NCBI GenBank assembly: GCA_024404435.1 | Contig: JAKSPW010000006.1 | Location: 1 to 17,219 of the forward strand | Origin: Clostridia bacterium | GTDB taxonomy: Bacteria > Bacillota > Clostridia > Oscillospirales > CAG-272 | Reading direction: 5' to 3' | Length of the DNA: 17,219 nucleotides | Part shown: positions 263-17,204 of the stretch, piece by piece | Numbering within the stretch: the stretch's first letter is position 1 | How the letters are laid out: the number at the start of each line of letters is the position of its first letter | The notes under the pieces: model-generated | Seen by the model: the letters and a program-made list of their open reading frames with translations, nothing else | Told to the model about the DNA's origin: nothing | Databases searched by the model: none | Translations under genes and position numbers: made by a program

Positions 263-285
263 AAAGCGGACGTGTTGTCCGCTTT
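263..285 (-). terminator. Intrinsic terminator of spoVAF
   Basis: A perfect 9-bp stem, AAAGCGGAC/GTCCGCTTT with a 5-base loop, overlaps the TAA stop (286-284) of the minus-strand spoVAF gene. The minus-strand tail is a broken T-run (TCTTGCTTTT). The plus-strand tail is also T-rich, so it may work in both directions. It separates spoVAF from the riboswitch promoter immediately downstream. Confidence 0.75.
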
Positions 286-1708
286 ATTCTTTCTTTTTCA
301 GCCTGAAGACGAGTCTTGCAAGTGCTCGTCCGTTGAACGGTATGAGAGGATAGAGGTAGCTCTTTTTACCGTTAGCCGTTTTGTTCGTCGCAACGAGAAT
401 CAGAGCGACGAGTACACCCGCGATAAATCCCGGATAGTCGAACAACGCGGTAAGGAGGAGCGTGAGCATCCTTAAATACTTGAAGGCATATCCGAGCTCG
501 TAGCTCGACTGCGTGAAATTCGCGATGCCTACGAACGCCATGTACAGTATCACGTCGGGAGAAAGCCAGCCGACCGTCACGGCAAAATCACCGAGCAGAA
601 GTCCTCCGACGACGGAAAGCGAGTTCGAGAGCATGTTCGGCGTATTCAGGGAAGCGAGCTTCAGCCCGTCAAGCGCAAATTCCGTAAGAAAAAGCTGCAG
701 CAGTATCGGAAGATCACCGGGTTCAGACGGAATGATGAATCGCCACGCCTCGGGCAGAGAATCCGCGTGCATCAGAAGCAGATACCAGACCGGCGTCAGA
801 AGCATGGTGAACCAGAAGATGACGTGCCTGAGAAGTCTCAGATAGGTTCCCGTCAGCGGAGGGAAGTAGTAGTCGTCCGTTTCCTGAAGAAAATCGAGGG
901 CTGAAGTCGGAAAGATCATAGCTTCCGGACTGTTGTCGCAGAGAAGAATGATCCCGCCTTCGAGGATCGTCGCCGCCGCCGCGTCCGGCCGCTCCGTGGC
1001 TCTGATCTTCGGGAATGGATTGTACCATCTGTCGTGTATCAGTGACTCCGCAACGCTCTGATGACCGAGCACGAGAGAATCCGTTTCAAGTCCCGCGAGC
1101 TTTTCAGCAAGCTCGTCGACGTATTTTAAGTCCGCCTTGTCCGCCATGTAGCATAGTGCGAGATCGGTGCGCGTTCTTTTTCCCGCGTTAACGTATCTGA
1201 CCGTCAGCCTCGGGTCGCGGATCCGTCTTCTGATCATTGCGGTATTGAAGATGAGCGTTTCGACGAATCCGTCGCGGCTTCCCCGCATGACGCGGTCGTT
1301 TTCGGGCTCGTCGGTCGTTCTTGCGGGATAAGTTCTCGCATCTATTATCAAAGCCTTATTGGCAAAACCGTCGCTGAAAAACGCCGTACATCCGCTCATC
1401 ACAGAAAGGATTATCCGATCGAGCGAATCAGTGACCTCGACCTCAACGCTCGGAACACCTGCGGCGAATCTGTCGGCAGCTTCCGCCGAGCCGTCTCCGA
1501 AATCATTCAGCGTCACGAAATAAAACAGCAGCCTCTGCAGCATCTCCGCCTTTACGAAGCCGTCGATATAATACAATACGACGTCGTGTTCCGATATCTT
1601 CATTTCGCGCTTTATGACGTCAAAGTTTTCGTTTATTCTCAGCACTTCGTCGGTCAAGGCAACGTTCTTTTTGAAATCTTTTTCGAGAAAGGTATCTTTA
1701 AGAGGCAA
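284..1708 (-). CDS. spoVAF: Spore germination protein, GerA family, SpoVAF type
   Basis: A 474-residue integral membrane protein of the GerA/SpoVAF family. SpoVAF associates with spore inner-membrane germination machinery and the SpoVA dipicolinate channel. The soluble N-terminal half (about 1-285) has the family signatures GFVKAEML (50-57), PENDRV.RG.RDGFVE (135-150), NTAMIRRRIRDPRL (155-168) and NPFPKIRATERPD (230-242). The C-terminal half (about 290-445) has several hydrophobic helices, including TPNMLSNSLSVVGGLLLGDF (356-375). The ending SYLYPLIPF (450-458) and YELGYAFK (403-410) favour SpoVAF over germinant-receptor A subunits, as does the absence of adjacent B and C subunit genes. The start is a TTG (1708-1706); the reading frame is closed by TAA upstream with no ATG between, and GGGAG lies 7 bases before it. 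That start sits in the T-run of the preceding gene's terminator. A forespore-type promoter probably drives it. The family is secure; the SpoVAF assignment is likely. Confidence 0.8.
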   Translation of the reverse strand: MPLKDTFLEKDFKKNVALTDEVLRINENFDVIKREMKISEHDVVLYYIDGFVKAEMLQRLLFYFVTLNDFGDGSAEAADRFAAGVPSVEVEVTDSLDRIILSVMSGCTAFFSDGFANKALIIDARTYPARTTDEPENDRVMRGSRDGFVETLIFNTAMIRRRIRDPRLTVRYVNAGKRTRTDLALCYMADKADLKYVDELAEKLAGLETDSLVLGHQSVAESLIHDRWYNPFPKIRATERPDAAAATILEGGIILLCDNSPEAMIFPTSALDFLQETDDYYFPPLTGTYLRLLRHVIFWFTMLLTPVWYLLLMHADSLPEAWRFIIPSEPGDLPILLQLFLTEFALDGLKLASLNTPNMLSNSLSVVGGLLLGDFAVTVGWLSPDVILYMAFVGIANFTQSSYELGYAFKYLRMLTLLLTALFDYPGFIAGVLVALILVATNKTANGKKSYLYPLIPFNGRALARLVFRLKKKE

Positions 1709-1755
1709 AAAATCACTCCCGACGTACTTTTTCCTTTAGTATCTGTCGGGAGTGA
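1707..1755 (-). terminator. Intrinsic terminator after the LtaS-type gene, overlapping the spoVAF start
   Basis: On the minus strand a perfect 11-bp stem (TCACTCCCGAC at 1755-1745, GTCGGGAGTGA at 1723-1713) with a 21-base loop is followed at once by six Ts (1712-1707). It begins 4 bases after the stop codon of the LtaS-type gene. The 3' arm also contains the GGGAG ribosome binding site of spoVAF, and the T-run contains the first two bases of its TTG start. On a read-through transcript the hairpin would hide that site. Confidence 0.8.
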
Positions 1756-1765
1756 CGTTTTATTC
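1737..1765 (-). promoter_or_regulatory. Putative forespore sigma-G-type promoter nested in the terminator
   Basis: On the minus strand GAATA (1765-1761) is followed by a 17-base spacer and GATACTA (1743-1737). This is close to the Bacillus sigma-G pattern (GNATR, 17-18 bases, CATNNTA), differing at one -10 base. The -35 overlaps the stop codon of the LtaS-type gene and the -10 lies in the terminator loop. A transcript starting near 1730 would lack the 5' arm of the hairpin and expose the spoVAF ribosome binding site. The motif is short, so this is suggestive, supported by the spore function of the gene. Confidence 0.45.
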
Positions 1766-3673
1766 ACTGACTGAGTATTTCTTTCCGAAGAGTCTGTCGT
1801 AGGTGATTATCATATGTGAATCTCTGTAATATTTCTGATCTTTTGTCAGCCTCATTCTCATTTTTGAGTTATATCCGGGAGCGCTTGCCTGATAATCCTT
1901 CAAGAATTCCGTGAGCTTCGTCTGCGGAGCACCGATGAGCTCGCCTGCGGCACTCATAAGGCAATACGACGAAATGACGTTGTCTTTTCCTTCGTTCAGC
2001 ATTGTCGATTCTTCAAGGTCGAAGTTGGCGTATATGAGGAACGGAGTCGTGAACACGGTCTTCAGATTCTCCTTGTAGAAACCGCTGCTGTCCGCAAGCC
2101 CCGTGTATCTGTACGCTGCCTTGTCGCTGCCGAGAGTCGGTGCGTGATCTCCGAAGAATACGATTACCGTGTCTTCTTCAGACGAATCAACGTAATCGAT
2201 GAGCCTTCCGAGGGCACCGTCCGCGTTTCTCATGCAGTGTGTATACTGATTCACGAGATTTCTGAGGTCTTCGTCGTAGGTGTCGCAGTCAACTCTTACC
2301 TTCAATTCTTCCTCGGTGAACTTTTTGTCATACGGCTGATGACCTTCCATGCTGATGCCGAAGAGGAAGAGCGGATCGTCCGTTTCTTCGATAAAATACT
2401 CGATATACTTTTCAAACGAGAAGTCGGAAACGTTGCCTCCGTTGATCCACATCGGCACGTCCTCGATCTTCTTGAGTTCGTCAATGAAGTAGGTCTCTTC
2501 AAAGCCGATGAGAGGATATCTCGACTGCCTCATGTAGAAGTTGGGCAGATACGGATGGATCGACATGGTGTGATAGCCGAGAGACTTGTACAAAGCGGGG
2601 AAGGCTTCGAGATCACTCGTCACGTACTGGTATGGTACTGATCCGCTCGGCAGATGGTCGGTCGTCAGTCCTGTCAGCACCTCGAACTCGGGCTTTACCG
2701 TGCCGCCGCCGAAGCCGGTCGTCGCAAATCTGCCGGAGTATACGCCCTCGCGGGAGGTGATCTCATCAAAGCGGTTGTACGGGTTTTCGGATATGACGAG
2801 TCCGGGAAGGTCTCTGACGTCCCAGAAGCTTTCCTGAAGGATCAGGATCACGTTCGGATTTCTGAAGCCGTCAGCTTCGTTTGAGCCTTCGTATTTGTCG
2901 AAAATATCATTTACGGCACTTTCCGAATAACCTTCGGGCTCGGTCACGGCACTCGCAAGCACGTTGAGCGTGAAGCCGCCGATGAATCCGTTTGCGGAAT
3001 AGTTTGTCGTTTCCTGAAGACCGCCGTTTGAGAAGCTCATTCCGTGGCGTGATGCGAGCTGTACGGCAGCCGAGGTGTTGCCGTAAGTGGCAAACAGAAC
3101 GAGAACGGTTATTATCGCCGCGGGAATTCTGACGTTCCATCTGATGGGAAGAACCGTTTTCGTCAGCGCGACGATAACTGTCAGAAGAACGACTCCGCCG
3201 AGTATCCAGTAGAATTCTTCCGGAATGTGAATATTGAGGTATTCCGTCAGTATGTCGAGATTTCCCGTCTGCTGAAAGTCCCACGGATACATGTATTCGC
3301 CGGTCAGCTGATACTTGAAGAAGCTTGCGACGGACAGACCGAACGAGCCGAGACCGAGGACGGCACACGATACCCACAGCCTTTTGAAGACGAGAACGAG
3401 AAGCGCGGAAATAAGGTAAAGGATGATAAGGTCGAGAACGATCACCGACACTCTTTTGTCGAAGAGCTTTGTGATCATCTTGATTCCCGTATCGTTCTTT
3501 ACGTGGACGTCGGACGTACTGAAATTGATATACTCCATCATGAGAAAACAGAGGAAAGGATATACGAGCCAGATGAGAGTGCCGAATACTCTGATCACGG
3601 CTTTCAGCCATTTCGGCTTTACAAACCACATTTTCGGCTGAGGAGTAAAGATAAATCTGTCAAAAAAATTCAT
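1760..3673 (-). CDS. LtaS-type lipoteichoic acid synthase family protein (sulfatase fold)
   Basis: A 637-residue protein with the LtaS layout: about five N-terminal membrane helices (roughly 24-46, 76-98, 103-121, 153-170, 182-198) and an extracellular sulfatase/alkaline-phosphatase-fold domain from about 272. LtaS enzymes polymerise glycerol phosphate from phosphatidylglycerol on the outer membrane face. The expected catalytic and metal-binding positions are present: Glu281 (LILQESFWD), nucleophile Thr325 (GGGTVKPEFEVLTG), His445 (MEGHQPY) and Asp509-His510 (FFGDHAPTLG). The GGGT..EFEVLTG form differs from the Staphylococcus LtaS motif, so the acceptor or product could differ. The ATG start is preceded by a weak purine-rich stretch. 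The gene starts 21 bases after the methyltransferase stop and is probably co-transcribed with the two-component genes, which suggests envelope-stress control. It is followed by a strong terminator. An alternative role is transfer of phosphoglycerol to another glycan. Confidence 0.85.
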   Translation of the reverse strand: MNFFDRFIFTPQPKMWFVKPKWLKAVIRVFGTLIWLVYPFLCFLMMEYINFSTSDVHVKNDTGIKMITKLFDKRVSVIVLDLIILYLISALLVLVFKRLWVSCAVLGLGSFGLSVASFFKYQLTGEYMYPWDFQQTGNLDILTEYLNIHIPEEFYWILGGVVLLTVIVALTKTVLPIRWNVRIPAAIITVLVLFATYGNTSAAVQLASRHGMSFSNGGLQETTNYSANGFIGGFTLNVLASAVTEPEGYSESAVNDIFDKYEGSNEADGFRNPNVILILQESFWDVRDLPGLVISENPYNRFDEITSREGVYSGRFATTGFGGGTVKPEFEVLTGLTTDHLPSGSVPYQYVTSDLEAFPALYKSLGYHTMSIHPYLPNFYMRQSRYPLIGFEETYFIDELKKIEDVPMWINGGNVSDFSFEKYIEYFIEETDDPLFLFGISMEGHQPYDKKFTEEELKVRVDCDTYDEDLRNLVNQYTHCMRNADGALGRLIDYVDSSEEDTVIVFFGDHAPTLGSDKAAYRYTGLADSSGFYKENLKTVFTTPFLIYANFDLEESTMLNEGKDNVISSYCLMSAAGELIGAPQTKLTEFLKDYQASAPGYNSKMRMRLTKDQKYYRDSHMIITYDRLFGKKYSVSE

Positions 3674-8529: not shown

Positions 8530-8577
8530 ACATTTTGTGACATTTTGAGTATTATTTCGATATCGGAGGATGCCGAC

Positions 8578-10383
8578 ATGAATCAGGATGAATTCAACTC
8601 TGTTCCGGCAGAGACGGAAAATAAAAAAACAAAAAAGAAGAAAGCCACCTTCGGTGAGCTTCTCCGCGACCTTTTCAAGGATAAAAGACCGTGGTATAAG
8701 AGACTCATCACGGCTGTTCTTGCCGCATTCGCATTCAGCTATACGCTGTATATATTCGGTATTTACGAGATTTACATCACGAACGCAAGCTTCTACACGT
8801 TCTCGTTCGACGATCTCAAGATACCGGCTCTCCTTCTCGGACTGTCTGTCACTCTTATCCTGACGGGAGTGCTGATGCTCCTGCGGGGAAAGATCTTCAA
8901 TTACTTCACGACCGTGATCTTCTCGATAACAGTCTGTTCCTATATCCAGTGCAACTTCCTGAACCACAGCCTCGGCGCACTTGACGGTACTGCGATCGCA
9001 TGGGAGACGATGTCCGGAAGCATGTTCCTTAACCTGTTTATCTGGGCGCTCATCTTCCTCGTCCCGTTCATAGTACTTTATTTCAACAAGAAATTCTGGA
9101 GAAGAATGGTCTGCTTCGTATCCGCACTGCTCATTCTCATGCAGAGTGCGGGACTTGTCAAGCTTTACGTCGAGGGTGACTTCTTCGACGTTTCGAGCAA
9201 CGGATATCTTTCGAATTCTACGATCTACGAGGTCTCTCCGAAGAACAACGTCGTTGTTTTCCTCATCGACAGATGCGGCTTCAACACAATGGAGAAGGTC
9301 TTTAAGGAATATCCCGATATTCCCAGGGGACTTGACGGATTTACGGACTACGACAACGTCCTCGGATCGTATTCGAGAACTTTCCCGTCGGTATGTTATT
9401 TCCTTACGGGAGTCAAGTGCGATTACGATATCCCGATCGGAGAATATTTCAAGAAGGCATGGGACGAAGGTACACTGCTGCCCGATATCAAGAATGCCGG
9501 CTTTGACACCAAGGTCTACACCGAGGTAAACTACGTCATCAAGAATACCGATAACGTTGTCGGAAAGATCGACAACGTAGGACAGAAGATCAAGAAGGCA
9601 GACGTCAGATCGATGCTCGATTCAATGGTCGATCTTTCGCTGTACCGCTACATGCCGACTGCGCTCAAGCCGTTCTTCTGGTGCTATACCGGTGACCTTG
9701 AAAGAATTTCCACCACCGGCGACGGAACGTTCACTTCCGACATCTACGCCACGAACGATCCGAACTTCTGTCAGAACCTCAGAGAAGACGGCGTCACGCA
9801 GAAGCTTGAAGGTGAAGGCTCCTTCATCTTCTACCACATGAGAGGCGCTCACGAGCCCTATCAGATGGATGCAGACGGAAATAAGAGCCAGACTTCGGAC
9901 GAGTTCCAGCAGACTGCAGGTGACATGAGAGCGATCCTCTTCTATATCGAAGAGCTGAAACGCCTCGGCATATACGATGACACAACGATCATCATCACAG
10001 CCGACCACGGCGTGACGGGAACGGTGGAAAAGCTCGGTGACATGAGATCGATCACTCTTCTCGTAAAGCCGAAGGGCGCCGACACGACAAAGCATCTCAA
10101 ATATAATTCCGCACCTCTCACACACGATAACATCAGAGCTTATATAGCCAAATCCTTCGGCATAGACTATTCCGCATACGGACCTGCGATCGACGACGTC
10201 GAAGAAGATGCCGACGTGACGCGTCACTTCTATATGAGCGGATGCGATAAGCTCCATCTTCACAGAGACACCAATCTCATCACCTATGAGATAAAGGGCG
10301 ACGTGAAGGACTTTGACAACTGGACCATCATTGATGAAAAGGAAATAGAATACCCCTTCTACGACGCAGGTAACAAGAGATAA
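8578..10383 (+). CDS. Membrane-anchored sulfatase-fold protein, LtaS-like, paralogue 1
   Basis: A 601-residue protein with a Lys-rich cytoplasmic N-terminus (NKKTKKKK, 15-22), about five membrane helices (roughly 43-64, 80-102, 106-124, 150-169, 177-193) and an extracellular sulfatase/alkaline-phosphatase-fold domain from about 222. Visible motifs are Asp231 (VVFLID), the probable nucleophile region SYSRTFPSV (264-272, Thr268 the best candidate), His425 (RGAHEPY) and Asp476-His477 (IITADHG). These are the usual metal and catalytic positions, so it is probably active, perhaps as a phosphoglycerol or phosphoethanolamine-type transferase. The sulfate-hydrolase CxPxR motif is absent. The chosen ATG has GGAGG 8 bases upstream; an in-frame TTG at 8545 would put this site inside the gene. 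It is clearly a tandem duplicate of the next gene. The substrate is unknown; neighbours suggest envelope polymer work. Confidence 0.82.
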   Translation: MNQDEFNSVPAETENKKTKKKKATFGELLRDLFKDKRPWYKRLITAVLAAFAFSYTLYIFGIYEIYITNASFYTFSFDDLKIPALLLGLSVTLILTGVLMLLRGKIFNYFTTVIFSITVCSYIQCNFLNHSLGALDGTAIAWETMSGSMFLNLFIWALIFLVPFIVLYFNKKFWRRMVCFVSALLILMQSAGLVKLYVEGDFFDVSSNGYLSNSTIYEVSPKNNVVVFLIDRCGFNTMEKVFKEYPDIPRGLDGFTDYDNVLGSYSRTFPSVCYFLTGVKCDYDIPIGEYFKKAWDEGTLLPDIKNAGFDTKVYTEVNYVIKNTDNVVGKIDNVGQKIKKADVRSMLDSMVDLSLYRYMPTALKPFFWCYTGDLERISTTGDGTFTSDIYATNDPNFCQNLREDGVTQKLEGEGSFIFYHMRGAHEPYQMDADGNKSQTSDEFQQTAGDMRAILFYIEELKRLGIYDDTTIIITADHGVTGTVEKLGDMRSITLLVKPKGADTTKHLKYNSAPLTHDNIRAYIAKSFGIDYSAYGPAIDDVEEDADVTRHFYMSGCDKLHLHRDTNLITYEIKGDVKDFDNWTIIDEKEIEYPFYDAGNKR

Positions 10384-10425: not shown

Positions 10426-12207
10426 ATGGTCGGAAATCAGACCGAAAACATCAGGACTAAAAAGAAAAAGACCGTCGGTGACGTTTTCCGCGAGCTGATA
10501 CAGGATAAAAGACCGTGGTATAAACGTCTGATAACGGCAGTTCTCGCAGCGTTTGCATTCAGCTACACTCTCTTCATCTTCGGTGTATATGAGATCTATA
10601 TCACCAACGCAACGTTTTATTCGTTCTCATTCGATGAACTGTGGCTTCCGGCTCTCCTGCTCGGACTTGCAGTCACGGCGGTGATAACCGTCTTCCTCAT
10701 GCTTTTGAGAGGAAAGATCTTCAACTTCTTTACGACGCTCGTCTTTGCCGTAACGCTTTGCGCATACATTCAGTGCAATTTCCTGAATCACAGCCTCGGC
10801 GCACTTGACGGCACTGCGCTGAAATGGGAACAGATGGCGGGCCCGATGCTGAAGAATCTTCTGATTTGGGCGCTTATCTTTGCCGTTCCGTTCATCATTC
10901 TCGTATTCAATAAAAAGTTTTGGAGAAAAACGGTTTGCTTTGTATCGGCTCTTCTGATACTCATGCAGACTGCGGGACTTGTAAACCTCTTCATCACGGA
11001 GGACTTTCAGAACAGCTCCGCCAAGGGCTATCTTTCCAACTCCACGATCTACGAGGTCTCGCCAGAGAACAACGTGATAGTCTTCCTGTTCGACAGGATG
11101 GGCTACGGTACACTCAAGACCGTGTTCAACACGTATCCCGACATAAAGGAAAAGCTTACCGGATTTACCTGCTACGATAATACGGCGGGCTCATATTCGA
11201 GAACGTTCCCGTCGGTCACTTATCTTCTTACCGGAGTCGAGTGCAATTACGATACGCCGGTCGGCGAATATTTCAGAAAAGCGTGGAGGGAAGGAAATTT
11301 CCTCAGGGACATAAAAGCCGCCGGATTTGAGTCAAAGCTTTACACCGAGGTGAGCTACGTTATCAAGAATACCGATAACGTGGAGGGCCTTATCGATAAT
11401 ATCGGGCAGCTTACTCCGAAGACGGATAAAAAGGGCATGATGAAGACCATGCTCAGCCTTTCGATGTACAGATACATGCCGACGGCGATGAAGCCCTTCT
11501 TCTGGTGCTACACCGGTGACCTCGGCAGGATCACGTCAACGGGCGACGGTACTTTCGCTTCCGACATACACATGACCGACGACCCTCTCTTCTTCCAGAA
11601 TCTGAAGGACAAGGGAGTAACGGTCAAGGACGGCAGCAAGGGCTCGTTCATCTTCTATCATATGAGAGGTGCTCACGACCCGTACATCATGGAAGCCGAC
11701 GGAAGCAGGAGCAATAACTCCAACGCCGTAAAACAGGCAGCCGGCAACTTCAGAATGTTGTTCTGCTACATAGATCAGCTCAAGAAGCTCGGCATTTACG
11801 ACGACACGACGATAATCATTACGGCCGACCACGGAATCACGGATGCCATGACCGAGCTTGACAGTGTCAGAATGATATCACTCCTCGTCAAACCCCGCGG
11901 AGCCGATTCGAACGCTCCGATGAAGTATGACGCTTCGCCGCTGAATCAGGACAATATCAGGTCGTACGTTCTCGAATGTCTCGGTATCGACCATTCGGGA
12001 TACGCTCCTTCGATAAGTGAGATAAAAGAGGGAGACGAAGTGGTCAGGTATTTCCATTTCAATGCCTGCGATCCTTCGAAAAAGCACAGGGACGTTGAAC
12101 TGATAACCTATAAGATCGACGGCGATGTTTCCGAGTTTGAAAACTGGTCAATCGCTGACAGGAAACCGATAGAGTATCCTTTCTACGATGCCGGAAGAAA
12201 TAAATAA
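10426..12207 (+). CDS. Membrane-anchored sulfatase-fold protein, LtaS-like, paralogue 2
   Basis: A 593-residue tandem paralogue of the preceding gene, alignable from end to end. Long stretches are identical, such as DKRPWYKRLITAVLAAFAFS, NFLNHSLGALDGTA and GIYDDTTIIITADHG. It has the same layout: basic N-terminus (TKKKK), about five membrane helices, then the extracellular sulfatase fold. The key positions are kept: Asp223 (VFLFD), Thr260 (SYSRTFPSV), His417 (RGAHDPY) and Asp468-His469. Differences cluster near the active site (LIDRCGFNTM versus LFDRMGYGTL, SVCYFL versus SVTYLL) and in the 325-345 region, which suggests different substrates or a primer/polymerase division of labour. GGAGG lies 8 bases before the ATG, and the 42-base gap to paralogue 1 has no promoter or terminator. 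The synonymous sites have diverged, so the duplication is not recent. The exact reaction is unknown. Confidence 0.82.
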   Translation: MVGNQTENIRTKKKKTVGDVFRELIQDKRPWYKRLITAVLAAFAFSYTLFIFGVYEIYITNATFYSFSFDELWLPALLLGLAVTAVITVFLMLLRGKIFNFFTTLVFAVTLCAYIQCNFLNHSLGALDGTALKWEQMAGPMLKNLLIWALIFAVPFIILVFNKKFWRKTVCFVSALLILMQTAGLVNLFITEDFQNSSAKGYLSNSTIYEVSPENNVIVFLFDRMGYGTLKTVFNTYPDIKEKLTGFTCYDNTAGSYSRTFPSVTYLLTGVECNYDTPVGEYFRKAWREGNFLRDIKAAGFESKLYTEVSYVIKNTDNVEGLIDNIGQLTPKTDKKGMMKTMLSLSMYRYMPTAMKPFFWCYTGDLGRITSTGDGTFASDIHMTDDPLFFQNLKDKGVTVKDGSKGSFIFYHMRGAHDPYIMEADGSRSNNSNAVKQAAGNFRMLFCYIDQLKKLGIYDDTTIIITADHGITDAMTELDSVRMISLLVKPRGADSNAPMKYDASPLNQDNIRSYVLECLGIDHSGYAPSISEIKEGDEVVRYFHFNACDPSKKHRDVELITYKIDGDVSEFENWSIADRKPIEYPFYDAGRNK

Positions 12208-12231
12208 GTAAATTATTTGGAGGTAACACCA

Positions 12232-12474
12232 ATGAAAAAAATTCTGTCATTCTTATTCTTCTTTGTATGCGCCATGATCATGTGCACGACGTACGCAATG
12301 GCTTACCTTGATCCGTCAGCCATGACGTATATCATCCAGGTCATCGCCGGTGTCGTTATCGCGGCAGGTGCTGCTCTCGGCTTCTACTGGAGAAGGATCA
12401 AACGTGCCATTTCCAAGAAAAAGAAAGGCGACGACGAAGACGAGGATGAAGACGAAGAGGAAGACGACGAATAA
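12232..12474 (+). CDS. Small membrane protein with signal peptide and acidic tail
   Basis: An 80-residue protein with a signal-peptide-like start (MKKILSFLFFFVCAMIM) ending in an AMA motif at 22-24. It continues YLDPSAMTYIIQ, a second membrane helix (about 32-52), a basic stretch (RRIKR..KKKK) and a tail of almost only Asp and Glu (67-80). If cleaved after AMA, the mature N-terminus YLDP would be outside and the acidic tail inside, by the positive-inside rule. I recall small proteins with a similar YLDPGTGS-type motif next to sulfatase-fold envelope genes, but I cannot name a family. GGAGG lies 8 bases before the chosen ATG; an in-frame TTG at 12217 lies upstream of that site and is rejected. 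The 3' end overlaps the signal peptidase gene out of frame. A role as adaptor or substrate within the unit is inference. Confidence 0.75.
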   Translation: MKKILSFLFFFVCAMIMCTTYAMAYLDPSAMTYIIQVIAGVVIAAGAALGFYWRRIKRAISKKKKGDDEDEDEDEEEDDE

Positions 12475-12994
12475 GGAAAGCGAAAAAAAGAAGCTTTCGC
12501 TGATGCCTCTGATAATTCCCGCTTCAGCCGTGCTTCTTGCCCTTATTCTCAATATTTTCGTCATAATTTCTGCCATAGTGCCGAGTGCATCTATGGCAGA
12601 CACTCTTGAAGAGATATCTTTTATCATCGGCTCAAGACTTGCATATCTTTCATCCGTCCCCGAAAGAGGTGACGTCGTGATCTTCGAAAAGGACGAGCTT
12701 GAAGCGGATCTCATTGTCAAACGTGTGATCGGGCTTCCCGGCGAGACCGTGGAGATCAGGAGCGGAAGAGTCTATATCAACGGCTCAGACACTCCTCTCG
12801 AAGAAGAATACGTCGACGCGTTTTCAGAAGACAGTGAAGGACCATACGTCGTTCCCGAAGGTGAATATTTCATGCTCGGCGACAACAGATGCGAGTCTTT
12901 TGACTCACGCTTCTGGGATTATAAATTCGTCCCGCTGAGCGACGTAAAAGCCAAGGTCATACTGAAACTGTGGCCGAGAGTCAAAAAATTCTGA
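12446..12994 (+). CDS. lepB: Type I signal peptidase
   Basis: A 182-residue membrane-bound serine protease that removes signal peptides outside the membrane. A basic N-terminus (MKTKRKTTNKESEKKK) precedes one membrane helix (about 19-42). The catalytic Ser49 lies in VPSASMADTL (the family norm is VPSGSMEPTL). Box D carries the general base Lys92 (VKRVIGLPGETV), and box E is GDNRCESFDSRFW (145-157). Both catalytic residues are therefore present and the length fits the small Gram-positive form. The ATG at 12446 lies inside the preceding gene in another frame, giving a 29-base overlap. No better in-frame start exists before the membrane helix except ATG 12503, which would remove the basic segment. 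No good ribosome binding site precedes 12446, so translational coupling is likely. The first upstream candidate substrate is the neighbouring small protein. Its place in this unit suggests a dedicated paralogue of the housekeeping enzyme. Confidence 0.88.
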   Translation: MKTKRKTTNKESEKKKLSLMPLIIPASAVLLALILNIFVIISAIVPSASMADTLEEISFIIGSRLAYLSSVPERGDVVIFEKDELEADLIVKRVIGLPGETVEIRSGRVYINGSDTPLEEEYVDAFSEDSEGPYVVPEGEYFMLGDNRCESFDSRFWDYKFVPLSDVKAKVILKLWPRVKKF

Positions 12995-13007: not shown

Positions 13008-15155
13008 ATGGTAGTAATCGATGCGATTTTAAGTGCGATCGGAACCGTGCTCGGATACGTTATGTGGGCATGCTTCAAAATATTCAAGGATTACGGAATC
13101 GCCATCATCTTCTTTACACTGCTGACGAAGGTGATCATGTTCCCGATAAACCTTATCGTACAGAAAAACTCAATAAAGATGGTCAAAATGAAGCCCGAGC
13201 TCGAGGCGCTTCGCTATCAGTACATAGACGATAAGGACGCGTATCTCGACGCGCAGACCGCTCTCTATAAGAGAGAAAAGTACAGCCCGATGGCAGGCAT
13301 CTGGCCGCTTCTTCTGCAGATCCCGATAATCCTCGGACTTATCGACGTTGTGTACAAACCTCTGAAGCACATGCTTCATATGCCGTCGGACGTTATTAAC
13401 GCGTTTGTCGAAAAAGCGGCGCAGATCATGAACACGACTGTCGATCAGCTCGGATCGTCTCCTCAGCTTCACGTTGTCGACCTGATGCAGAAGGCGGAGA
13501 ATCTCGATGCCTTCAGAAGCATTCAGGGCATCGAAGGCGTTTCCGGATACGTAGACAAGATCTCGAACCTCAACATGAACTTTCTCGGCATCAACCTTGC
13601 GAAGATACCGAGCGTAACGACCCTCGACCTTCTGTTCCTCGTCCCCGTCCTTGCGGGCGTTTCGGCGCTTATCATGTGCGTGATTCAGAATAAGATCAAC
13701 GTGCTTCAGATCGAGCAGAGCAAGGCGTCCCAGTGGGGAATGACGATCTTCATGATCGCTTTCTCGACCTATTTCGCATTCATCGTTCCCGCCGGTGTCG
13801 GCATCTATTGGATGTGGGGCAACCTCTTTGCCATCGCCGTCATGTACCTCGTGAACCTCGTATACAGTCCGAAGAAGTATATCGACTATAAGGCTCTCGA
13901 CGAAATGAAGAAAAAAGCGGCAGATGACAGAGCCTATAATAAACGCTGCAAAAAGCTCGGAAAGCAGTACTACAAAAAGTTCTGTGAATCCGACAATATC
14001 AGCCACATGAAGCTGATGTTCTACGCCGAGGGCGGCGGATACTACAAGTATTTCAAGAACATCATCGACGCTGTGCTCGCAAAGTCAAAGCTCAAGATCC
14101 ACTACGTTACGAGCGATCCGGACGACCCGATCCTGAGTACGACGGAAGAGCGTATCATCCCTTACTATATCGACCAGAACCGCCTTATAACCCTCTTCAT
14201 GAAGCTCGAGGCGCAGATGGTTATCATGACGACGCCCGACCTTGAAAAATACTATCTCAAGCGCTCCAAGGTCAGACGCGATATCGAATACGTCTACACC
14301 GACCACGCCTGCACGAGCATCAACCTCACATACCGCGGCGGCGCGTTCGACTATTTCGATACGATCTTTGCCGTCAGCCGTCCGCAGGCCGAAGAGGTCA
14401 GAGCGATCGAAAAGCTCAGAAATACGAAAGAAAAGACCATCGTCGAGGTCGGCTACGGTCTTATCGACAACATGATCGCTTCCTACGAGGCATCCGACAA
14501 GACGCCAAACGAAAAGAAGACGATCCTCATCGCTCCCTCGTGGCAGATCGACAATATCATGGACAGCTGCCTTGACGGACTTGTCGAGGGACTCACGAAG
14601 ACGGGTTACAGAGTCATCATCAGACCTCACCCGCAGTACATCAAGCGTTTCCCGATGCAGATAGCCGAGATCATGGAGAAGTATAAGGATCGCTTCAGCG
14701 AAGACTTCAAAATCGAGACCGATTTCTCCTCCAACGTCACGGTTTATACCGCAGACCTTCTCATCACCGACTGGTCGTCCATCGGATACGAGTACAGCTT
14801 CACGACAAAGAAGCCGACTCTGTTCATCAATACGAAGATGAAGGTCGTGAACAAGGGATATAAGAAGATCGGCATCACTCCTTACGATATCACCGCGCGC
14901 GACATAATCGGACGTTCTCTCGAAAAAGAGGATATCGATAAGATCGGCGAGGTCGCAACGGACCTCATCGAGAATCAGTCGTCGTATTCGGCACAGATCG
15001 AAAAGGAAAGAGAAGAGTACTTCTACAACCTCGGAACGAGCGGAGAAGTCGCTGCCGACTATATTATCGGTAAGCTCGTGAAAAAGAAAAAGAAAAAGCA
15101 GGATGAAACGGCACCTGAAAACGCCGAAGAAACTGCCGAAACCGCAAACGTCTGA
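13008..15155 (+). CDS. YidC/Oxa1 insertase fused to CDP-glycerol glycerophosphotransferase
   Basis: A 715-residue two-domain fusion in one open frame. Residues about 1-290 are YidC/Oxa1-like: membrane helix GIAIIFFTLLTKVIMFPINL (30-49) with Lys41 near the usual groove arginine, a cytoplasmic hairpin (KMKPELEALR..YIDD), then YSPMAGIWPLLLQIPIILGL (92-111), an extra segment at about 120-200, and GIYWMWGNLFA (265-275). After a basic linker (290-330), about 335-690 is a GT-B-type domain like TagF/TagB glycerophosphotransferases, which move glycerol phosphate from CDP-glycerol to a polymer. It shows His433 (VYTDHACTS), RPHPQY (539-544) and LLITDWSSIGYEY (584-596). The C-terminus is Lys-rich (692-697), then acidic. 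CGGAG precedes the ATG, 13 bases after the signal peptidase stop. The usual rpmH-rnpA-jag context of the housekeeping yidC is absent, so this is probably a second, specialised copy. I know of no characterised protein with this domain pair. Confidence 0.88.
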   Translation: MVVIDAILSAIGTVLGYVMWACFKIFKDYGIAIIFFTLLTKVIMFPINLIVQKNSIKMVKMKPELEALRYQYIDDKDAYLDAQTALYKREKYSPMAGIWPLLLQIPIILGLIDVVYKPLKHMLHMPSDVINAFVEKAAQIMNTTVDQLGSSPQLHVVDLMQKAENLDAFRSIQGIEGVSGYVDKISNLNMNFLGINLAKIPSVTTLDLLFLVPVLAGVSALIMCVIQNKINVLQIEQSKASQWGMTIFMIAFSTYFAFIVPAGVGIYWMWGNLFAIAVMYLVNLVYSPKKYIDYKALDEMKKKAADDRAYNKRCKKLGKQYYKKFCESDNISHMKLMFYAEGGGYYKYFKNIIDAVLAKSKLKIHYVTSDPDDPILSTTEERIIPYYIDQNRLITLFMKLEAQMVIMTTPDLEKYYLKRSKVRRDIEYVYTDHACTSINLTYRGGAFDYFDTIFAVSRPQAEEVRAIEKLRNTKEKTIVEVGYGLIDNMIASYEASDKTPNEKKTILIAPSWQIDNIMDSCLDGLVEGLTKTGYRVIIRPHPQYIKRFPMQIAEIMEKYKDRFSEDFKIETDFSSNVTVYTADLLITDWSSIGYEYSFTTKKPTLFINTKMKVVNKGYKKIGITPYDITARDIIGRSLEKEDIDKIGEVATDLIENQSSYSAQIEKEREEYFYNLGTSGEVAADYIIGKLVKKKKKKQDETAPENAEETAETANV

Positions 15156-15950: not shown

Positions 15951-17204
15951 ATGTTATCCGGATTTAAGAATTTTCTGATCACGTTTCTTGTCGCGGCGCT
16001 TCTGTTCGGACTCGTCGGCTTTTTTGCCACGAAATACGTTTCCGGCGTCGTGACCGACATTCTTGACGGTGAGAAGGATAAGCTTGACGATATCCTGAGC
16101 AACCCGGATCAGACTGAAGAAATTAAAAAAGAACCCGAAAAGGATCCGGATCTGAAGGTACCGGACGGCAACTCGTTCACCATGGTCTTCGTCGCAACGA
16201 ATTTCTATCCCGATAAATATGACAACTATTACGGATACGGCACGAAGGTCGACGACGTTATCAAGAAAGCCAATAAAGAGAAGGATTCGCTCGGCGCACT
16301 TTCCACAAAGTTCAGATACCTGAACGCGACGTGCATCGTCCTCGTCAGAGCCGATAAAGAGAACAGGGAATACGTTGCCTGCTACATTTCTCCCGAAACG
16401 AAGGTTACGTCTCCATCCGGTGACGTTACTCTCGGCGAAGCGTACGGGCGCTACGGCATGAACACTCTCTGCGATTATATCACCGTCATGACGGGCCTTG
16501 AGATAGATTACAGATTCCTCATAGACGGTCATCGCTTCGATGAGTTCATCGCGCTGATGGATCCTGTTAAGTTCGACCTTGAAGGTCCCATCTATTCAAT
16601 GGGCAAATACCACGTTTCGTTCAAGGAACCGCTCGAGACCGAGACTGAAACGGCGATTCTGACCGAGCCGAAGGAAACCGAGAAAAAGGACGAAAAGGAC
16701 GCGAAAACTTCCGAGGGCGATAAGGACGACAGCGAAAAGATCCCCGAGAAGGTCGGCAATTCCATTGTCCTCAAAAAAGGAAAAGATCAGGACTTCAATA
16801 ATTATTCGGTTTACATTCTCAATACCTTCAAGGAGTTTTCCGCAGAGGACGTTGAGATGAAATCAAAGCTTTCTCTCCACATCCTTAAAGAGTATCTCAT
16901 GCTCTTCGAAAAAATGAAACAGGATGAGCTTGTCGAGAAGCTGAAGGACATCACCGAGGAAAAGTACGAGGACTTTGAGTACGTCTACTCGTGGAAGAAC
17001 GCTCTCGCTACCGACATGAAAGCGGAAAAGGGAAAGGATATCCACTCGATGCTCGAAGCGATCGAGTATTTCGGCTACTCCGAGATGATCTATCCCGGTG
17101 AATTCAATCCCGAAACGAAGATGTTTGACCCCGACGTCAAGACGGGCTTTGAATTCTTCAAAAAATACCGTCAGGGCGTAGAGACTCCCGAAACCGAGAC
17201 ATAA
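15951..17204 (+). CDS. Membrane-anchored extracellular protein with degenerate LCP-like domain
   Basis: A 417-residue protein with one N-terminal membrane helix (about 8-27) and the rest outside. Residues about 76-215 resemble the LytR-CpsA-Psr (LCP) fold that attaches teichoic acids and other glycans to peptidoglycan: FTMVFVATN, TCIVLVRADKENREYVACYI (127-146), LGEAYGRYGMNTLCDYITVM (161-180), and TGLEIDYRFLIDGHRFDEFI (181-200). The usual catalytic IPRDT-type segment is replaced by ISPETKV (146-152) and the loop Asp/Arg residues are not evident, so it may bind without catalysing. Residues 225-268 form a Glu/Lys/Thr-rich linker, and 285-400 are a mostly helical region I do not recognise. AAAGGA precedes the ATG at good spacing. 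The assignment is by pattern resemblance; a novel extracellular domain is the alternative. Confidence 0.6.
   Translation: MLSGFKNFLITFLVAALLFGLVGFFATKYVSGVVTDILDGEKDKLDDILSNPDQTEEIKKEPEKDPDLKVPDGNSFTMVFVATNFYPDKYDNYYGYGTKVDDVIKKANKEKDSLGALSTKFRYLNATCIVLVRADKENREYVACYISPETKVTSPSGDVTLGEAYGRYGMNTLCDYITVMTGLEIDYRFLIDGHRFDEFIALMDPVKFDLEGPIYSMGKYHVSFKEPLETETETAILTEPKETEKKDEKDAKTSEGDKDDSEKIPEKVGNSIVLKKGKDQDFNNYSVYILNTFKEFSAEDVEMKSKLSLHILKEYLMLFEKMKQDELVEKLKDITEEKYEDFEYVYSWKNALATDMKAEKGKDIHSMLEAIEYFGYSEMIYPGEFNPETKMFDPDVKTGFEFFKKYRQGVETPETET

Follow-up and report, generated by a model that had tools for sequence, protein, structure and literature searches.

A single open reading frame in the window (the whole 17,219-nucleotide stretch of DNA that was analysed) encodes a YidC/Oxa1 insertase domain followed by a TagF-like transferase domain. 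This YidC-TagF fusion is real and is no oddity, i.e., it is part of a recurring gene set whose four parts are the YidC domain, the TagF-like domain, an AlkP-superfamily membrane protein, and a small membrane peptide, the YIDP peptide. The parts list of this set is well supported, it is very likely that the four parts work jointly, and the set probably decorates the cell surface of some gut bacteria. In our reading, the fusion is one half of a machine with four parts, the half embedded in the membrane; this machine would place small alcohols, linked through phosphate or phosphonate, on the outer surface of the cell. We put the probability of this whole-machine statement at roughly 0.5, because the carrier may be a lipid or a peptide.

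The YidC-TagF Gene Is a Conserved Two-Domain Fusion

The first-pass annotation had read the frame as a YidC/Oxa1 insertase joined to a teichoic-acid-type glycerophosphotransferase with the RPHP and LITDWSS motifs kept, and both domains and motifs were borne out by Pfam and by a 53-row alignment (Table 1). The fusion scores 117.9 bits against PF02096 (cut-off 35), and its TagF-like domain both exceeds the PF04464 cut-off and adopts a GT-B fold. Structure prediction, proposed in the same annotation, gave an AlphaFold model (53 sequences; pLDDT 90.1, pTM 0.74) in which the YidC half has the YidC fold, with B. halodurans YidC as the closest structure, and the TagF half matches TarL and TagF most closely. 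H433 and H541 are invariant (53/53) and are kept across both linkages described below; a one-to-one equivalence to TagF H444 is putative.

Table 1. Features of the fusion gene and its upstream neighbours, with positions in the window.
Feature	Position	Strand	Basis and remarks
AlkP-superfamily membrane protein 1	8545..10383	+	PF00884 17.6 bits, below cut-off 25
AlkP-superfamily membrane protein 2	10426..12207	+	PF00884 28.8 bits, above cut-off 25
Small membrane peptide, 85 aa frame	12217..12474	+	ATG start probably 12232
YLDPSAMTYIIQ motif directly 3' of AxA site	12304..12339	+	AxA is a candidate signal-peptidase cut
Signal peptidase I (S26) gene	12350..12994	+	Exact start unsure, likely downstream of 12474; profile match covers 12524-12973
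YidC-TagF fusion gene	13008..15155	+	715-codon frame without stop
YidC/Oxa1 domain, PF02096, residues 29-283	13092..13856	+	Pfam; fold match to B. halodurans YidC
K41, groove charge, aligned to E. coli YidC R366	13128..13130	+	Alignment; K/R in 53/53 fusion rows
Linker between YidC and TagF-like domains, residues 284-330	13857..13997	+	Variable in alignment
TagF-like GT-B domain, residues 331-690	13998..15077	+	Pfam (PF04464 match 460-607), AlphaFold, structural match
H433	14304..14306	+	Invariant 53/53; candidate equivalent of TagF/TarL catalytic His
RPHP motif, residues 539-542	14622..14633	+	Alignment; invariant 53/53
D588-W589-S590 of LITDWSS	14769..14777	+	Alignment; invariant 53/53

When about 5.8 billion proteins were searched, 7999 candidates were scored, and 4572 of these matched at E <= 0.001. 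All 120 matches listed, the window protein being one, carry both halves according to our own HMMs, and PF02096 and PF04464 occur together in 119 of them. The domain-architecture search called for in the first-pass annotation thus finds the fusion to be widespread and conserved, and the halves are not always separate in relatives. The YidC-TagF join is continuous in a 30-sequence alignment that includes the window, with the motifs of both halves kept, and the lowest conservation falls to the linker, where mean pairwise identity is 0.31 (residues 291-330). A join created by a sequencing error or frameshift was rejected on the strength of the two-domain matches and this continuity. The source names of four of the matches listed read 'membrane protein insertase YidC' or 'YidC/Oxa1 family'. 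Neither YidC-TagF nor YidC-AlkP proteins turned up in the literature searched, with most subscription journals outside the scope.

PF04464 was found once in the window's own genome, within the fusion. The TagF half retrieved no match in a plasmid search. In a phage collection, it matched nine records (two of them with 80% or more of the query covered), all of them short, unannotated, human-faecal 'Bacteriophage sp.' entries that are likely bacterial DNA.

Four Parts Recur Together and in Different Combinations

Upstream of the fusion, the window encodes two AlkP-superfamily membrane proteins, the 85-codon peptide, and a signal peptidase I. We counted these and other features in 81 loci, i.e., the window plus the best 80 of 118 loci from GTDB species genomes, and took a feature to be near the fusion if it shared the fusion's ORF or lay no more than 5 kb away. 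AlkP was near the fusion in 71 loci, the peptide in 75, and the signal peptidase in 36; the donor-type genes were a choline kinase (30), a LicC-like nucleotidyltransferase (41, a count that may take in other nucleotidyltransferases and carries no weight as proof), and a PEP mutase (3). Restricting the count to the 45 loci that extend 5 kb on both sides gave, in the same order, 40, 45, 24, 17, 27, and 3. The HMMs for AlkP, the peptide, and choline kinase were built from these same loci; therefore, the counts measure linkage, not discovery. At 20 loci of ordinary yidC genes, drawn from 20 of the 43 fusion genomes searched, none of the seven features was found, the TagF-like gene included. Obligate adjacency of the four parts was rejected, as 10 of the 81 loci have no AlkP and 6 have no peptide within 5 kb. 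Some of these lie at contig ends, and AlkP is out of reach in five loci with 5 kb on both sides (L050, L065, L066, L069, L076).

Over the 81 loci, we found the peptide as a separate frame in 54 and joined to AlkP in 19, and we did not find it in six; single cases are a fusion to choline kinase (L054, Pfam-confirmed) and a four-domain ORF that includes it (L068). Two linkages can be distinguished. In type A, YidC is joined to TagF, accompanied either by separate AlkP and peptide genes or by a peptide-AlkP fusion beside YidC-TagF. In type B, a YidC-AlkP protein (about 915 aa) lies beside a peptide-TagF protein (about 420 aa), and the two adjoin at six of the seven peptide-TagF loci examined (L104-L107, L109, and L110, not L111). 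The YidC-AlkP protein of L109 has both PF02096 and PF00884 above cut-off. At L104 (3586-15135, genome G433), four YidC-AlkP genes stand in tandem, followed by the peptide-TagF gene. A search for YidC-AlkP proteins gave 120 listed matches, some named Treponema, all of which carry PF02096 and match our own AlkP HMM; PF02096 here is precomputed, whereas our own YidC HMM misses many type B domains and found 46 of the 120. All four parts occur as a single YidC-TagF-peptide-AlkP chain in L068 (1482 aa) and P0243 (1515 aa), and other orders were found in P0251 (YidC-TagF-AlkP) and P0250 (AlkP-YidC-TagF). A stand-alone TagF-like gene (389 aa, with neither YidC nor peptide) is present at L108 (1694-10724), near AEP-pathway genes and two AlkP-HMM frames.

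Because the four parts are conserved neighbours and are also fused in different combinations and orders, we regard them as one functional set. The suggestion in the first-pass annotation that the neighbouring 'sulfatase paralogues' and small protein matter as partners holds up well here, as both are conserved next to YidC-TagF and share a polypeptide with it in some proteins.

The YIDP Peptide and the Signal Peptidase

The peptide consists of a hydrophobic leader, the residues AMA, and then YLDPSAMTYIIQ at the start of a second hydrophobic stretch. In the motif Y[IL]DPxxx[ST], all 75 HMM matches have the Y, the D, and the S/T, and 74 have the P. This HMM was seeded from pattern matches, and its motif count is less biased than that of the pattern-based set, where the invariance of Y, D, P, and S/T was forced by the search pattern. 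Small residues occupy positions -3 and -1 relative to the motif in 73 of the 74 distinct sequences with at least 15 preceding residues (a loose rule), so that a signal peptidase could cut the YIDP peptide and leave Tyr as the first residue of the mature form. A signal peptidase gene accompanies the separate peptide in 35 of 54 loci and the peptide-AlkP fusion in 0 of 19. Two more sites in the window's own genome match PF10502, and at one of these the match is a short fragment. In the type B peptide-TagF proteins, the motif lies a few residues from the protein start.

An AlphaFold prediction for a natural peptide-AlkP fusion (L047) gave low confidence for the peptide region, and nothing in it places the YIDP motif near the AlkP site. 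Peptide frames of about 195-220 codons were seen in L013 (5915-6577) and L034 (7401-7988), with a C-terminal extension that has no Pfam match.

The AlkP-Superfamily Partners

Sulfatases carry the Cys or Ser of a formylglycine signature in the nucleophile column. In the alignment of the AlkP partners, this column (355) holds Thr in 41 of 42 rows and Ser in one, and it aligns with the LtaS Thr. The partners belong to the AlkP superfamily, and the sulfatase label of the first-pass annotation was dropped, although the partnership itself stands. D318, H508, D559, and H560 are invariant in 42/42 rows. Together with the Thr column, these conserved residues make it likely that the partner is an active enzyme.

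The window's two AlkP partners matched no NCBIfam family at E <= 0.001, and hence no LtaS model. A profile search against the PDB returned phosphonate monoester hydrolase first and LtaS next, and a fold comparison returned mostly sulfatases among the 50 matches listed, with LtaS not among them. Fold and profile matches thus single out no phosphotransferase, and the fold comparison is not decisive between LtaS and a sulfatase. The partner may act as a transferase and not as a hydrolase, a reading drawn from the Thr, the topology, and the context. Elsewhere in the window (284-3673, reverse strand), a third AlkP protein, which scores 122.6 bits against PF00884 and has a weak LtaS-model match, is encoded along with a GerA-type spore germination protein.

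The YidC Half and Its Possible Role

The groove position holds K or R in all 53 fused YidCs, in contrast to 11 of 21 ordinary YidCs (L001, L130-L149; Fisher p 4.9e-7, with the kinship of rows ignored). The ten ordinary YidCs without a positive charge have E (3), Q (3), N (3), or A (1); the ordinary YidC of the window's own genome (L001 1288-2535) has Glu at the position of E. coli R366. These ten contrast with the abstract of PMC8920935, in which R366 is described as strictly conserved in all homologues. Lysine can stand in for R366 according to the same source, where R366K together with Y517A is reported as active. The two halves are about equally conserved, with mean pairwise identities of 0.489 (YidC) and 0.500 (TagF), and the value reaches 0.566 for TM1 plus the cytoplasmic hairpin. 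In the preprint PMC10491306, purified E. coli YidC is reported to scramble lipids in proteoliposomes, and all Oxa1-family members tested there scramble lipids in simulation.

We propose that the cytosolic TagF-like domain would transfer a group from a CMP carrier to a lipid or to the YIDP peptide, that the hydrophilic groove of the YidC domain would let the charged head cross the membrane, and that the AlkP enzyme, with Thr in its nucleophile column, would pass the group on to an acceptor at the surface. Once released by the signal peptidase encoded next to it, the YIDP peptide would be a shuttle or an acceptor at the outer face. Passage of the head group through the YidC domain is the step that we hold to be somewhat short of an even chance. 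The fuller picture is about equally tentative: the YidC/Oxa1 fold would have become a passage reserved for groups such as phosphocholine and phosphonate, carried on a lipid or a peptide, and transferase, groove, YIDP peptide, and AlkP would form a relay across the membrane. This relay accounts for the recurrence of the four parts, for the varying donors, and for the joining of YidC to either the inner or the outer enzyme; an insertase role and an anchor role would each account for part of this.

Simple YidC clients are small and have few residues ahead of the membrane stretch. The YIDP peptide is small, and its type B form has few residues before the membrane stretch, which would suit a YidC domain that serves as insertase or chaperone specifically for the YIDP peptide and AlkP protein of the set, tethered for assembly in place. 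The groove charge is kept and is equally expected of a working insertase, and the pairing of the signal peptidase gene with stand-alone peptides, and not with peptide-AlkP fusions, also agrees with such a role. However, a separate PF02096 frame of less than 650 aa is present in 36 of the 43 fusion genomes searched, the seven without one, genomes of unstated completeness, being G402, G404, G425, G429, G431, G436, and G440. The window's own genome (1.5 Mb, 248 contigs, 80% complete) likewise has a second YidC of ordinary size besides the fusion. Moreover, the tether persists even where the peptide is in the same polypeptide (L068 and P0243), and a one-time assembly aid explains no fusion to either enzyme. 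We therefore consider a dedicated insertase unlikely. The YidC domain may be coupled to the insertion of a partner, as raised in the first-pass annotation.

TagF-type enzymes are peripheral membrane proteins, and the YidC domain could be nothing other than a membrane anchor or scaffold that keeps the TagF-like enzyme near its lipid substrate. Stand-alone TagF-like forms do exist, namely the peptide-TagF proteins with one membrane stretch and the L108 protein without YidC. Nevertheless, the groove charge is kept and the YidC core is as conserved as the enzyme half, so that a pure anchor, one of the roles first suggested, is less likely than use of the groove. It is also YidC, and no other membrane domain, that recurs in both linkages, once with TagF and once with AlkP, and we find a mere anchor improbable. 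The conserved YidC half, which speaks against it, fits protein insertion as well as lipid passage.

Donor Genes and the Likely Substrate

TagF-type enzymes use CMP- or CDP-linked small-alcohol donors, and the donor enzymes linked to the set make such compounds or are akin to enzymes that make them. At many loci, a choline kinase (PF01633) and a LicC-like nucleotidyltransferase lie directly downstream of the fusion; both were Pfam-confirmed at L022, at L042, and, as two domains of one protein, at L083, and the YidC-TagF proteins P0247 and P0249 themselves carry choline-kinase Pfam domains. The type B pair with the YidC-AlkP protein of L109 adjoins a PEP mutase-cytidylyltransferase, a phosphonopyruvate decarboxylase, and an AEP aminotransferase, and similar phosphonate genes lie beside the type A YidC-TagF gene of L114. 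L115 has a ribitol-phosphate-cytidylyltransferase-like gene, below the family cut-off for IspD, and L116 a glycerol-phosphate-cytidylyltransferase-like gene near the fusion. Strain 1XD42-76 (G438) has four YidC-TagF genes in four loci (L113-L116) with differing donor-gene neighbours, namely LicC-like; phosphonate; choline kinase plus IspD-like; and glycerol-phosphate-cytidylyltransferase-like.

The 17 kb of the window contain neither a choline kinase nor a PEP mutase nor any further donor gene, and the 80%-complete own genome yielded no choline-kinase part and no TagD-like match, its sole PF01467 match lying in a frame read as NadD. On another contig of this genome (L120 4799-8063), an HTH-LicC-like gene, an amine-permease-like gene, and a second LicC-like gene stand in a row; the LicC-like genes are possible donor genes for the window's system. 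A membrane-anchored protein downstream of the fusion (15951-17204, forward strand) has a sub-threshold LytR-CpsA-Psr match (E 0.016) and is possibly a polymer-attachment enzyme.

Context in the relatives, not in the window, supports CMP-activated alcohol phosphates or phosphonates as donors, with CDP-choline and CMP-phosphonates in several lineages, and we consider a role in CMP-alcohol or phosphonate surface decoration reasonably likely. Because the neighbours often suggest CDP-choline and sometimes CMP-phosphonates, glycerol phosphate is not likely to be the general substrate. The original label 'glycerophosphotransferase' is thus correct by family profile, but the neighbours are more often choline kinase, with a few PEP mutases, and no TagD-like match was seen in the own genome. 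A conventional teichoic-acid polymerase, tethered to the membrane and fed by CDP-glycerol or CDP-ribitol, as the title of the first-pass annotation implies, would agree with the PF04464 score, with TarL/TagF as top structural matches, and with the glycerol-3-phosphate- (L116) and ribitol-5-phosphate-cytidylyltransferase-like (L115) genes at some loci, but is very improbable given the choline kinases near 30 of 81 loci, the several linked enzymes of phosphonate routes, and that sole PF01467 match. Overall, the first-pass interpretation is partly supported: architecture, motifs, conserved fusion, and relevance of the partners stand, whereas the substrate and sulfatase labels have changed.

Distribution

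The best 80 of the 118 fusion loci from GTDB species genomes come mostly from Clostridia MAGs; further hosts are Coriobacteriales, Bifidobacteriaceae, and Chloroflexi/Flexilinea MAGs, a Bittarella massiliensis strain, and strain 1XD42-76. A 53-row tree unites the Chloroflexota in a single supported group and requires two changes for the Actinomycetota, among Bacillota rows. The root of the tree and the MAG labels are unsure; therefore, transfer of the fusion is suggested, not shown.

The distribution is patchy. About 12 of 295 genomes sampled from the window's order have a match spanning both halves, and 2 of 398 do in a phylum sample. Four of the twelve order-sample matches hold one stop codon; the DNA was looked at for G614, G717, G692, and G591, besides the window. 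Strong YidC-only matches were seen in the order sample in G674, G701, G605, and G472. G674 and G701 were considered as unfused precursors and rejected, since their neighbours look like an ordinary dnaN-rnpA-yidC-jag region.

Significance and Comparison with Known Systems

How charged lipid heads pass the membrane for decoration outside is often unexplained, and the lipid scrambling seen with purified YidC (PMC10491306) raises the question of whether such activity of insertases has a biological use. With a YidC domain wired to a head-group transferase inside and tied to a putative transferase outside, this question can be tested directly. If the reading is true, a protein-moving fold may help move activated lipids across the membrane, and the set would be a natural use of the insertase fold for small molecules instead of proteins. 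'Insertase' names hide a probable surface-modification system in gut Clostridia, Actinomycetota, and Chloroflexota, with the YidC-AlkP form in Treponema.

Similar to TagF/TarL (PF04464), the fusion has a GT-B fold, RPHP, DWS, and invariant histidines. In contrast to them, its TagF-like domain is fused to YidC, or to a YIDP stretch in type B, and its neighbours point to choline or phosphonate more often than to glycerol or ribitol. With the YidC/Oxa1 insertases (YidC, SpoIIIJ, YidC2), it shares PF02096, the fold, and the groove charge, but the fusion is an extra copy with a C-terminal enzyme domain and sits in a predicted surface-decoration operon. All fused rows keep the groove charge, and nearly half of the ordinary copies (10/21) do not.

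The AlkP partners resemble LtaS and other membrane AlkP transferases in having a helical N-terminal part followed by an AlkP domain with D, H, and DH invariant and Thr nearly so, and LtaS is among their top PDB profile matches. They differ in that the window's two copies lack an NCBIfam LtaS match and in that the family is tied to YidC, TagF-like, and YIDP modules.

In Dlt D-alanylation and Gtr glucosylation, cytosolic loading is followed by membrane passage and transfer outside, and Dlt has a small membrane peptide, DltX. The proposed set would work likewise; its proteins are unrelated, and we claim no membership in either system.

In gene neighbourhood, the set resembles lic phosphocholine and Pnt phosphonate decoration, as in some relatives of the window a choline kinase and a LicC-like gene, or a PEP mutase and a cytidylyltransferase, adjoin the transferase. 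PntC activates AEP with CMP for the cell surface, and LicD-like transferases are named as neighbours in Pnt systems (PMC6697681). Going by what that source names, the Pnt systems have LicD-like transferases where the set described here has a YidC-linked TagF-like domain and an AlkP protein.
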